From: Candidatus Gastranaerophilales bacterium
Lineage (GTDB): Bacteria > Cyanobacteriota > Vampirovibrionia > Gastranaerophilales > Gastranaerophilaceae
Assembly (NCBI GenBank): GCA_947589425.1
Contig: CANQAV010000005.1
Span: 1 to 64,000, forward strand
Length of the DNA: 64,000 bases
Reading direction: 5' to 3'
Below the pieces are notes generated by a model. The model was not told the DNA's origin, did not search any database, and saw only the letters and a program-made list of their open reading frames with translations. This document shows positions 19,292 through 34,380 of the stretch, piece by piece (within the stretch, counting starts at the first letter, position 1; every line of letters starts with the position of its first letter). The translations under genes were made by a program, and so were the position numbers.

Positions 19292-20254
19292 TTATTTCTT
19301 AATTCTTTCTTTGATTAAAGTAAATTTTCGAACAATTAAAGGGCTTGTAAAGGTTAAAAGTGTTTTTCTTTTATATAGCTTGAAATAAATTTCTTCTATA
19401 TATGGTTTAAAAAAAGGAGTCTTAATAAGATATTCATACCAAATATCAATTTTCGGGCAATAATTGTTCCATGGCTTATTTTGCTCCTGCGCATAATGCA
19501 GTTGAATAGGGCTATTAAGTGCTTCTTCGATTTCATTTCTTTCTTTTTCGTCCAAATTATCCGCATATTTTTCAAAAGAAGTATAGTCACTTACACCTAT
19601 AAGCGCATTTATGGGCATTGGTTTAATTTTAGGATAGCAAACTATATTCATAACGTCCTGTTCGGGACAAAGCAGTTTATGTGCATTTTGATATGCATAT
19701 TCAACAAATTTTTCTTCAATATTATCTTCCCTCATTTTTTTAAGATTGAAAACCATAAACCCTGCGCCAAAACACAGCTTTTTCTTTTCTTCTTCGGTAT
19801 ATTCTTCTCTTTTTCTTTTATATTTTGGGGGGTTAGTCGGATTTTTAAAATTTATTCCTTTTGATGCCGAAAAATAATAGTTTTCTTCTTTCTCAAAATC
19901 ATTATAAACGGTTGAAATATCCCCTAAAAACACAACATCAACATCAGATACCATAATTTTATCCAAAGAAGGAAAAATTGAAGAAACGAGAAATTTGTAA
20001 AACATCTCTTTTGTAAAAATCCGATTAGCATAAGTAATTTTATGCAAATCATCAAATTTATTGCTCATATTTATAAATTCAAGACTTACGTTTAAAAAAG
20101 GCTCTGTTGTTTTAAAAAGGAGCTTTTTATTTTCTTCTTTGATATCGTTTTCTAAAATGTAAATCTTATAATCGTAATCTTTATTGGCATTATAGAGCAT
20201 TGAATATATCGCAACACTGCCGGGGATGGAATAATTGTTATCAAAACAAAACAT
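19292..20254 (-). CDS. GT8-family glycosyltransferase, phase-variable, OFF
   Basis: The frame from ATG 20254 gives 320 aa of a GT8 enzyme. It has FCFDNNYSIPGSVAIYSML at the start, the metal-binding DxD in VSDVDVVFLGD (about 100-110), and LHYAQEQNKPWNN near 255. Family members begin slightly upstream (xIPVMFCFDNNY), so 20254 is probably not the real start. Upstream in the same strand an ATG at 20343 opens MENVFKSYEN..., runs into a G8 tract (20288-20281) and stops at TAA directly after it. With nine G the frame would continue into NHRRTIPVMFCFDNNY and give about 350 aa. TTGTAA (20379-20374), 17 nt and TAAGAT (20356-20351) form a promoter placing the transcript start at the 20343 ATG. Confidence 0.8.
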   Translation of the reverse strand: MFCFDNNYSIPGSVAIYSMLYNANKDYDYKIYILENDIKEENKKLLFKTTEPFLNVSLEFINMSNKFDDLHKITYANRIFTKEMFYKFLVSSIFPSLDKIMVSDVDVVFLGDISTVYNDFEKEENYYFSASKGINFKNPTNPPKYKRKREEYTEEEKKKLCFGAGFMVFNLKKMREDNIEEKFVEYAYQNAHKLLCPEQDVMNIVCYPKIKPMPINALIGVSDYTSFEKYADNLDEKERNEIEEALNSPIQLHYAQEQNKPWNNYCPKIDIWYEYLIKTPFFKPYIEEIYFKLYKRKTLLTFTSPLIVRKFTLIKERIKK

Positions 20255-20280
20255 TACGGGAATTGTTCTTCTATGGTTTA

Positions 20281-20288
20281 CCCCCCCC
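20281..20288 (-). repeat. Poly-G8 tract at the 5' end of the GT8 gene
   Basis: Eight C on the plus strand (G on the coding strand) lie between the inferred start at 20343 and the GT8 body. G7 gives CCA TAG and G8 gives GGG TAA, both stops. G9 gives an open frame into the GT8 domain. It is a candidate slipped-strand switch. Confidence 0.75.
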
Positions 20289-20395
20289 TTGATTTTTGGG
20301 ATTTTAAAACCCGATTTTCGTATGATTTAAAAACATTTTCCATAGGTTTAATCTTACAATATTAACATTTTTTTTACAACAATTTTATGGAATAT

Positions 20396-31879: not shown

Positions 31880-32815
31880 ATGGAAAAAAAGCTTATACTA
31901 ATCGGCTCGGGCGCATATTTTACGGATAGCTTTATTTATTTTGCAAAAAAAGGCTTTAAAGTAAAAGTTATAAAAACGGGTAAGACAACAAAGTGGTTTA
32001 TGTCCAATTATCAAATATATCAAGATTTAAACTTTGAAATTATTGATGCGGACTATGAAAACAAAGATTTTATAAAAAGCTTGGATATCAATAAAAACAC
32101 TATCGTAATCGGGGGCGGAGGCTACTTTGGAGATTTGGAAAACTATCCCGAAGGAAGAAAAAGTGCTCATAATGACCTTTGGGTTTTAAAAGAAATTGCG
32201 AATTATAATAAACAAAATAATTTGGGGGCTTTAACCGTAAGATATTTTAACGGGGATACGGGTTTCGGTACAAAAATGGAAGCGGAGCTTTTTGAAGAAA
32301 GCCTTAAAAATGTTGATTTATTGATTTTTGATAATGACAATTTAAGGGATTTTGTAATTTATAATGCTCCTTCCCTGAAAAATAAAAAATATATTTATGC
32401 ATGGTTTGAAACACCATTAAAACAATTCGTTTACCATAATGAAAACAAGGAATATAAAAAACAATTTATCTCGTTTGGAAGAAACATCTGTTCAACAGAA
32501 ATAAATTATCCTTCAAAAGCAATGTTTTATCCCTATCCATATAATAAATTTAAAGGAATTAAAAGAATAACAGAAAGATTTTACCACAAAAAAATTCAGC
32601 ACTTAAAAAGCATTTATTATATTGCGGGAATGTCAAATTATAAACAAATCCTCTCAGACAGAAAAGAAGTTTTTGAAAAGCTGTCAAAAATTACCTTTGG
32701 TTTATCGCATTTTTATGATATTTTTCAAAATTCCGTTGAAGAATTTTTGAAAAATAAAGAGTTTTATTTCTCTCTAACCGCTCAAAATTCATCTAATAAA
32801 GAGGGGGGGGGGTAG
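31880..32815 (+). CDS. Glycosyltransferase-like paralog 1, N-terminal part (phase OFF)
   Basis: The frame gives 311 aa starting with a Rossmann-like LILIGSGAYFTDSFIYFAKKGFKVKVIKTGK and containing GALTVRYFNGDTGFGTKMEAE and FDNDNLRDFV. It ends at ...SSNKEGGG followed by TAG, immediately after a G10 tract. The missing C-terminal part continues in another frame to 33095. Removing one G joins them into a 404-aa protein. The overall plan resembles a GT-B glycosyltransferase, but no specific family is recognised. It is 1.3 kb from a close paralog with the same break. Confidence 0.6.
   Translation: MEKKLILIGSGAYFTDSFIYFAKKGFKVKVIKTGKTTKWFMSNYQIYQDLNFEIIDADYENKDFIKSLDINKNTIVIGGGGYFGDLENYPEGRKSAHNDLWVLKEIANYNKQNNLGALTVRYFNGDTGFGTKMEAELFEESLKNVDLLIFDNDNLRDFVIYNAPSLKNKKYIYAWFETPLKQFVYHNENKEYKKQFISFGRNICSTEINYPSKAMFYPYPYNKFKGIKRITERFYHKKIQHLKSIYYIAGMSNYKQILSDRKEVFEKLSKITFGLSHFYDIFQNSVEEFLKNKEFYFSLTAQNSSNKEGGG
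32195..32355 (+). repeat. 161-bp block identical in both paralogs (copy 1)
   Basis: By eye this block matches 33458-33618 base for base, encoding NYNKQNNLGALTVRYFNG through NDNLRDFV, while sequence on both sides differs. It marks recent gene conversion or recombination between the tandem paralogs. Confidence 0.85.
32803..32812 (+). repeat. Poly-G10 tract in paralog 1
   Basis: Ten G follow AAAGA and lead to TAG. The downstream coding frame is reached with nine (or twelve) G: GAG GGG GGG GGT AGG AAT then reads EGGGRNLYYGFCNNPSKD. It is a candidate phase-variation tract, OFF in this assembly. Confidence 0.85.
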
Positions 32816-33095
32816 GAATTTATACTACGGATTTTGCAATAACCCCTCAAAAGATGTTTGCTATTTGATGTATGGAATTATTCCCCTTGTTCCCCATAAT
32901 ATCCACAGTATTTACAAAACTTTGGCGGATAAAAAAATGGCAATCGTAATTAAAGATAAGTCCGATTTTAAAAGATTGCTAAAGATGAGTGATGATGAAA
33001 TACAGGAATATAGGGATAATATTTATAATAATTCCGATTTATTTACCTTTGATAAAACAGGAGATATGTTAATCAAAGAGCTTGAAAAAAATTAA
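32814..33095 (+). CDS. Glycosyltransferase-like paralog 1, C-terminal part (out of frame)
   Basis: After the poly-G tract the other frame reads RNLYYGFCNNPSKDVCYLMYGIIPLVPHN and runs to a stop at 33095, ending NNSDLFTFDKTGDMLIKELEKN. It has the look of a GT-B C-terminal domain (GIIPLVP, then KDKSDFKRLLKMSDDEIQEYRDN). The first internal ATG is at 32862-32865 but has no ribosome site. The segment is strongly conserved with the matching part of paralog 2 (34084-34380), so it is under selection as protein. It should be translated only when the tract is in the ON length. Confidence 0.65.
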   Translation, partial: RNLYYGFCNNPSKDVCYLMYGIIPLVPHNIHSIYKTLADKKMAIVIKDKSDFKRLLKMSDDEIQEYRDNIYNNSDLFTFDKTGDMLIKELEKN

Positions 33096-33148: not shown

Positions 33149-34129
33149 ATGAAAAAAAATCTTATACTAATCGGCTCGGGTTGTTGGTTTATTGACAGTT
33201 TTTCATATTTTATCGAAAAAGGTTTTAAAATGACTGTCATAAAAGTTGAAAAAACAGCATCTTTTTTTGCTCCAAATTACGAAATATTAAATGCTTTAGG
33301 TGCAAAGATTATTGAAGCTGAATATAACAGCGATTTTATTAAAAGTTTAAACATAAATCAAAATACAATTATAATTGGCGGCGGTTATTATTCCGGCGAT
33401 TCCCCCAATTTTAACGGAAGCTTTGTTTCTCATAATGAATTATGGCTTATGAAAAATATTGCGAATTATAATAAACAAAATAATTTGGGGGCTTTAACCG
33501 TAAGATATTTTAACGGGGATACGGGTTTCGGTACAAAAATGGAAGCGGAGCTTTTTGAAGAAAGCCTTAAAAATGTTGATTTATTGATTTTTGATAATGA
33601 CAATTTAAGGGATTTTGTTGTTACAAATGCTCCCAAATTAAAAGACAAAAAATATTTTTACGGCTGGATTGAAACCCCGTTAAAAAAATATGTAAATCAT
33701 AATTTAACAAAAAAATATTTTAGAGAATTTATCTCTTTCGGAAGAGTTATCTGTTCTGATAAAAATATGAAATATCCCGTAAAAACAGCGTTTTATCCCT
33801 ATCCGTATAATCAGTACAGGGGAATAAAAAGAATAATAAAAAGATTTTATCATAAAAAAATACGACATCTAAAAAGCGGTTACTACATTGCAGGATGCGC
33901 AAATTTGGCACAAATCCTTTCTGACAGAAAAGAGGCTTTTCAAAAACTGTCCGATTACGCCTTTGGTTTATCGCATTTTTATGATATTTTTCAGGGCTCA
34001 ATTGAAAAATTTACGAAAAACAAAGACTTTTATTTTTCACTTTTCGGACAAAATTCAACTATTAAAGAGGGGGGGGTAAGGGTATGTCTGCCTATTACGC
34101 CTTTTGCAATAACCCCTCAAAAGATGTAA
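33149..34129 (+). CDS. Glycosyltransferase-like paralog 2, N-terminal part (phase OFF)
   Basis: This is the tandem paralog of the 31880 gene, starting NLILIGSGCWFIDSFSYFIEKGFKMTVIK with AAAGGATG as ribosome site. The reading frame passes a G8 tract, goes out of phase and ends 18 codons later (VRVCLPITPFAITPQKM). In the correct frame the sequence continues as AYYAFCNNPSKDVTYLMNGIIPL. With nine G the product would be 410 aa. It shares a 161-bp identical block with paralog 1. Confidence 0.6.
   Translation: MKKNLILIGSGCWFIDSFSYFIEKGFKMTVIKVEKTASFFAPNYEILNALGAKIIEAEYNSDFIKSLNINQNTIIIGGGYYSGDSPNFNGSFVSHNELWLMKNIANYNKQNNLGALTVRYFNGDTGFGTKMEAELFEESLKNVDLLIFDNDNLRDFVVTNAPKLKDKKYFYGWIETPLKKYVNHNLTKKYFREFISFGRVICSDKNMKYPVKTAFYPYPYNQYRGIKRIIKRFYHKKIRHLKSGYYIAGCANLAQILSDRKEAFQKLSDYAFGLSHFYDIFQGSIEKFTKNKDFYFSLFGQNSTIKEGGVRVCLPITPFAITPQKM
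33458..33618 (+). repeat. 161-bp block identical in both paralogs (copy 2)
   Basis: This is the second copy of the identical block described at 32195-32355. A further nearly identical stretch covers the 3' ends (CTAAAGATGAGTGATGATGA... at about 32979 and 34239). Confidence 0.85.
34069..34076 (+). repeat. Poly-G8 tract in paralog 2
   Basis: Eight G follow AAAGA and lead to TAAGGG. Adding one G gives GAG GGG GGG GGT AAG GGT ATG, which joins the N-terminal frame to the conserved C-terminal domain. The ON length, nine, is the same as that deduced for paralog 1. Confidence 0.85.
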
Positions 34130-34380
34130 CATATTTGATGAACGGGATTATACCTTTAATTTCTCACAATTTACATAATGTATATAAAAGCATGACAGAT
34201 AAAAAAATGGCAATTTTAATTAAAGATAAGTCCGATTTTAGAAAATTACTAAAGATGAGTGATGATGAAATACAGGAATATAGGGATAATATTTATAATA
34301 ATTCGGATTTATTTACCTTTGACAGAACCGCTCAAAGAATAATTGAAGAATTTGAAATTTCAAAACGGTTAAACAAATAA
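34084..34380 (+). CDS. Glycosyltransferase-like paralog 2, C-terminal part (out of frame)
   Basis: The 98-aa frame opens at an ATG (SAYYAFCNNPSKD) just after the G8 tract and overlaps the end of the out-of-phase N-terminal frame. It matches the C-terminal part of paralog 1 closely: GIIPLISHNLHNVYKSM, MSDDEIQEYRDN, NNSDLFTFD. It could be translated alone from 34084, but without a ribosome site a functional protein is more likely only from the G9 joined frame. The last residues (ISKRLNK) are specific to this copy. Confidence 0.65.
   Translation: MSAYYAFCNNPSKDVTYLMNGIIPLISHNLHNVYKSMTDKKMAILIKDKSDFRKLLKMSDDEIQEYRDNIYNNSDLFTFDRTAQRIIEEFEISKRLNK

Follow-up and report, generated by a model that had tools for sequence, protein, structure and literature searches.

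Two tandem genes of an uncultured bacterium are each out of frame at a long run of guanines, which raises the question of whether such genes are decayed, misassembled, read through by slippage during expression, or switched by changes in tract length. The genes lie in a 64,000-nucleotide stretch of DNA (the window) on contig C5 of a 1.87-Mb genome (G000). A hydrogenase-like protein encoded there has its closest named relatives, at 85–88% identity, in Candidatus Gastranaerophilales MAGs (isolates Lapin-015 and Lapin-002). We conclude that both are very probably poly-G phase-variable (contingency) genes that were assembled in the OFF state; the evidence for this reading, and for its rivals, is given below.

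Two tandem genes out of frame at poly-G tracts

The sequence-only reading had held that paralog 1 is cut at a G10 tract, and the stop codon TAG (32813–32815) indeed abuts that tract (Table 1). The frame behind the tract is open, as also noted there, with 93 sense codons and a stop 3′ of the tract. When the tract is read one base shorter, as G9, the two parts join into a single 404-aa chain, which agrees with the earlier proposal; G9 is not the sole in-frame length, as G12 likewise restores the frame (405 aa). Translation for each length gives 310–329 aa for tracts of 7, 8, 10, and 11 and 404/405 aa for 9/12, so that one-base changes toggle the frame. Paralog 2 (33149–34380) lies in tandem with paralog 1 and is likewise out of frame, in this case at G8, and 9 G would yield 410 aa. 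The tracts of the two paralogs occupy a homologous site, and G10 and G8 are opposite displacements from G9.

The third long tract of the window is found in a GT8 glycosyltransferase gene, 18 codons after the ATG. From the frames of paralog 1, paralog 2, and the GT8 gene it follows that every long tract of the window, three in all, is one base off G9, the length at which its gene would be in frame. That all three are OFF counts against phase variation. The G8 word has 5 matches in the window, compared with a shuffle mean of 0.37, and none of 100 shuffles reaches 5.

The paralogs also share blocks of identical DNA, which are most simply, and probably, the result of gene conversion. The longest block listed, 161 bp of identity amid paralogs that are ~70% similar, points to gene conversion or recombination, processes that could exchange tracts as well.

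Table 1. Positions of the paralogs, their tracts and shared blocks, and of the other tract loci with a clear frame state. Loci outside the window are given as contig:position.
Feature	Position	Strand	Remark
GT8 glycosyltransferase gene	19292..20343	-	Frame broken by its own G8 (20281-20288); same kind of locus
Paralog 1, N-terminal frame (311 aa)	31880..32815	+	Stop TAG immediately 3′ of tract
161-bp block	32195..32355	+	100% identical to 33458-33618 of paralog 2; probable gene conversion
Paralog 1, G10 tract	32803..32812	+	OFF length
Paralog 1, orphaned C-terminal frame	32814..33095	+	93 codons + stop; dN/dS 0.18 vs. paralog 2
56-bp block	32979..33034	+	Inside orphaned segment; identical to 34249-34304 of paralog 2
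Paralog 2, N-terminal frame	33149..34129	+	~70% identical to paralog 1 until tract, then 16 wrong-frame codons
Paralog 2, G8 tract	34069..34076	+	OFF length; position homologous to paralog 1 tract
Paralog 2, orphaned C-terminal frame	34078..34380	+	
ON loci (about 8)	C1:97150, C1:193771, C6:41993, C6:73610, C7:12801, C17:23348, both C28 tracts		
OFF loci (about 8)	Three in window, C3:123322, C6:42999, C6:69666, C6:72566, C17:21209		C3:123322 least certain

Selection on the orphaned segment

When their segments 3′ of the tract are aligned (93 codons), the two paralogs differ at 61 bases, distributed as 17, 14, and 30 over codon positions 1, 2, and 3. With a pS of 0.54 and a pN of 0.15, the Nei–Gojobori dN/dS of the downstream segment is 0.18 (0.27 for the upstream part), a comparison between the two paralogs only, because no other relative of the pair was found in 286 genomes of the order or 386 of the phylum. 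When an equal number of changes was placed at random, the observed amino acid identity of the segment was reached in 0 of 5000 placements. The test was repeated with identical blocks of at least 24 nt taken out; synonymous sites are then saturated (pS 0.79; pN 0.24), again 0 of 5000 simulations preserve as many amino acids, and ~91% of the simulations acquire an in-frame stop. The sequence-only reading had claimed that the orphaned segment is still selected as protein and had named a high ratio of non-synonymous to synonymous changes downstream as evidence to the contrary; the ratio between the two paralogs is low, a mark of purifying selection, and the claim holds with the likely gene-converted blocks removed. 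Given that the tract is common to both copies at one site, either it probably predates the duplication or conversion copied it from one paralog to the other. A tract older than the duplication would mean that the segment has been under selection while lying behind the tract.

Predicted protein product

Searches of Pfam, PDB sequences, plasmids, phages, viral contigs, and genome contigs (the last by peptide patterns) gave no homologs of the pair, nor did those of 97 relatives, 286 genomes of the order, and 386 of the phylum. In Pfam, no family was matched by the joined protein (E up to 0.001) or by the N-terminal part of paralog 1 (E up to 1); with no Pfam glycosyltransferase match, the pair is placed in no GT family. 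Weak profile matches in two genomes (G010 and G165) were rejected as chance, with the host proteins reading as HisC/HAD-like and GGDEF-like.

An AlphaFold2 model of the protein, built on an alignment of three rows, has a poor overall pLDDT of 46.6, with moderate confidence for residues 1–170. The best structural matches of the N-domain in this model are GT4 enzymes (PglA, Z 12.0; 2jjm, 11.7), followed by GT-B-fold UDP-GlcNAc 2-epimerases (Z ~10) and short-chain dehydrogenases (at most 9.2). Foldseek by itself places generic Rossmann enzymes on top, with low TM-score. The modeled N-domain resembles PDB 8dqd, the PglA of Campylobacter concisus, with 147 residues superposed at an rmsd of 2.5, but at 12% identity; unlike PglA, the pair has no Pfam glycosyltransferase match. 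The C half is predicted with a pLDDT of 34, too low for a usable model. Structure prediction of the G9 protein as one chain, which had been suggested as a check, therefore gave moderate confidence for the N-domain and no confident model of the whole chain or of the C half. Of the ‘GT-B-like C-terminus conserved with paralog 2’ described in the sequence-only reading, the conservation stands, and the model suggests a likeness to GT-B for the N-domain only.

The surroundings of the locus show no visible glycan cluster around the pair; this, together with the lack of a Pfam match and the pLDDT of the C half, makes the enzyme class uncertain. The most likely product is a glycosyltransferase of the GT-B type, whose target would be a surface glycan. 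The tract precedes the last ~95 residues, so that the truncated form would lack part of the second domain and would probably be inactive.

Poly-G tracts across the genome

Runs of G in the window genome, counted at exact length, number 103 for G6, 6 for G7, 13 for G8, 16 for G9, 5 for G10, and 2 for G11. The run-length spectrum thus has a second mode, with 36 tracts of G8–G11 vs. only 6 of G7. By the long frames around them, 25 of the 36 tracts lie on the G strand of a gene and 5 on the C strand, and 6 are unclear; GA precedes 24 of them and T follows 26. Pfam matches around the tracts include five GT8 genes (one in the window), a GT9, a pair of GT90 genes (the second copy assigned via 89% identity to the first), a GT2, an FkbM methyltransferase, and AlgX/SGNH, as well as two SDRs, a TPP enzyme, a polysialyltransferase-like protein, DUF4422, a polysaccharide deacetylase, a Fer4/FrhB protein with polysaccharide pyruvyl transferase, and a weak sulfotransferase match. 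Glycosyltransferase and further glycan genes account for many of the tracts, a set of the kind in which contingency genes occur, and a surface role may be supposed for the pair itself.

Among loci with a clear joined frame, to which the ON/OFF count was restricted, about eight are ON and about eight OFF (Table 1). The tandem GT90 pair has one copy at G8 (OFF) and the other at G9 (ON), and elsewhere in the genome the in-frame tract genes have lengths of G8, G9, or G10. The two tract genes on contig C28 have counterparts in a congener (G011), with 88–98% identity and the tract position kept; the polysialyltransferase-like gene is computed to be in a different frame state in each of the two species.

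Two other arrangements were observed. Two G11 tracts (C5:78852 and C5:82626) are situated immediately 5′ of the ATG of two proteins that do not differ for 1121 aa or more, begin with what resembles a signal peptide, and lack a Pfam match; tracts in this position may influence how translation starts or how the promoter is spaced. Two G9 tracts, one close to either end (C6:77907 and C6:79089), are present in the sulfotransferase-like gene, known by its weak Pfam match.

Proposed switch and alternative explanations

Under phase variation, slipped-strand mispairing in replication would lead to the gain or loss of one G. Tract lengths divisible by three (G9, G12) would give the full protein, of ~404 aa for paralog 1 and ~410 aa for paralog 2, and the remaining lengths would lead to a stop at or shortly past the tract, with the last ~95 residues missing. 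Switching of the putative glycosyltransferase would in turn vary the cell surface. We infer that such a switch would be reversible, with a slippage rate that would sustain a mixture of tract lengths; the lengths compared here, those of the paralogs (G10/G8) and of other loci, come from one assembly.

Some full-length protein could also be made from unchanged DNA, if the G tract caused programmed ribosomal frameshifting or slippage in transcription. Runs of 8–10 G are slippery, and both halves are conserved, but the paralogs, at G10 and G8, need opposite shifts, so that the direction of the shift is not kept between them; moreover, the mix of in-frame lengths seen in the other tract genes of the genome is not what a fixed slip signal would lead one to expect. 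We regard this explanation as very unlikely, and some slippage in addition to phase variation as possible. An error of the assembly or consensus, with a true majority of G9, is less probable again: consensus sequences often err in the length of homopolymers and the assembly consists of 32 contigs, but length miscalls alone cannot yield both 36 tracts and the gap at G7, and tracts of this type in C. jejuni are well resolved by Illumina reads (PMC3025981). A majority of G9 would, besides, alter the state called and not the kind of locus.

Decay of both copies after frameshift mutations has the lowest probability of the explanations weighed, and we consider it highly improbable. The broken frame of both copies and the lack of a relative in congeners might be expected of pseudogenes; against this, the dN/dS of the orphaned segment is low, neither copy has a further disabling change, and both breaks are located at the tract, in different directions. 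With two sequences compared, a recent loss in both copies is possible. Phase variation at the poly-G tracts accounts best for the pair.

Tracts and mismatch repair in relatives

In the genus of the window genome (g1; 28 genomes, G000–G027), 13 of the 28 species have no G8 run, and five (G000, G010, G011, G016, and G027) have 17 to 85 matches of the G8 word each. All 28 genomes encode a MutS1-like gene, scoring under the curated cut-off in every case; a broken mutS in the window genome was ruled out, as the ORF is intact (772 aa). MutL (TIGR00585, family cut-off) was detected in 0 of the 28 genomes, and is above the cut-off in 79 of 116 relatives, among them nearly every member of the order and class and most of the family's other genera. 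The absence of MutL from the genus favors the phase variation reading; that it is also absent from tract-free congeners counts against that reading, and since congeners that lack MutL are often free of tracts, its loss was ruled out as the sole cause of the tracts. Loss of MutL may permit instability and by itself would be no predictor of tracts.

In another genus of the family (g64; genome G176, C1 1-267995 and C2 1-120000), many tracts of G9–G11 are located ~8 codons past an ATG. These ATGs have a Shine-Dalgarno-like sequence, and a prepilin motif (SFTLAEVLITLVIIG) occurs ~15 codons past the tract, in another frame; most of these tracts are out of frame, and few are in frame. The G-run spectrum in these regions comprises 4 G6, 1 G7, 0 G8, 11 G9, 9 G10, and 3 G11. 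By the appearance of these sequences, the g64 tracts look like a phase-variable prepilin battery. Counts of G9 across the order were dropped as a measure of phasome size, given that exact G9 alone was searched and that many g64 tracts are placed within prepilin leaders or away from any long frame.

Comparison with known systems and significance

In Neisseria, phase-variable glycosyltransferases have a poly-G tract within the gene that toggles a surface glycan, and both the families and the products are known. The point of resemblance is the poly-G tract in a putative glycosyltransferase gene; unlike those of Neisseria, the pair described here has no sequence family match, and its paralogs are in tandem with signs of gene conversion. 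The poly-G loci of C. jejuni have tracts of G8–G13 within genes, mostly surface-glycan genes, with in-frame lengths that are often 9 or 10; its AT-rich genome of 1.6 Mb has roughly two dozen of them (PMC3025981). The loci described here are like these contingency loci in the range of tract lengths, the in-frame lengths of G9/G10, and the glycan targets; they differ in the host, an uncultured member of the Gastranaerophilales (Cyanobacteriota), and in an unrelated orphan gene family, and switching is here deduced from sequence. Among the titles and abstracts of the open-access literature, we recognised none on contingency loci, phase variation, or homopolymer switching in Gastranaerophilales/Melainabacteria. 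The kind of system is thus well known; the lineage, the repertoire, and the orphan gene family look new as far as we have seen.

The tract set suggests that a non-photosynthetic gut relative of cyanobacteria has a surface-variation system of a type known mainly from pathogens. More broadly, it is likely that Gastranaerophilales run multi-locus poly-G phasomes, exemplified by the 36 tracts of the window genome, many in glycan genes, and by the apparent g64 prepilin battery (G9–G11, ~8 codons past the start); this coincides with MutL loss in the genus of the window. As a warning for annotation, a gene split at poly-G in such a genome is probably a switch locus rather than a pseudogene. A recent review asked why many-locus phase-variable genomes seem confined to pathogens, and whether this reflects database bias (2025; PMC11868660). 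If the present reading is true, this cyanobacterial lineage, which is uncultured, non-photosynthetic, and apparently commensal, would with its large phasome put that restriction to pathogens directly to the test.
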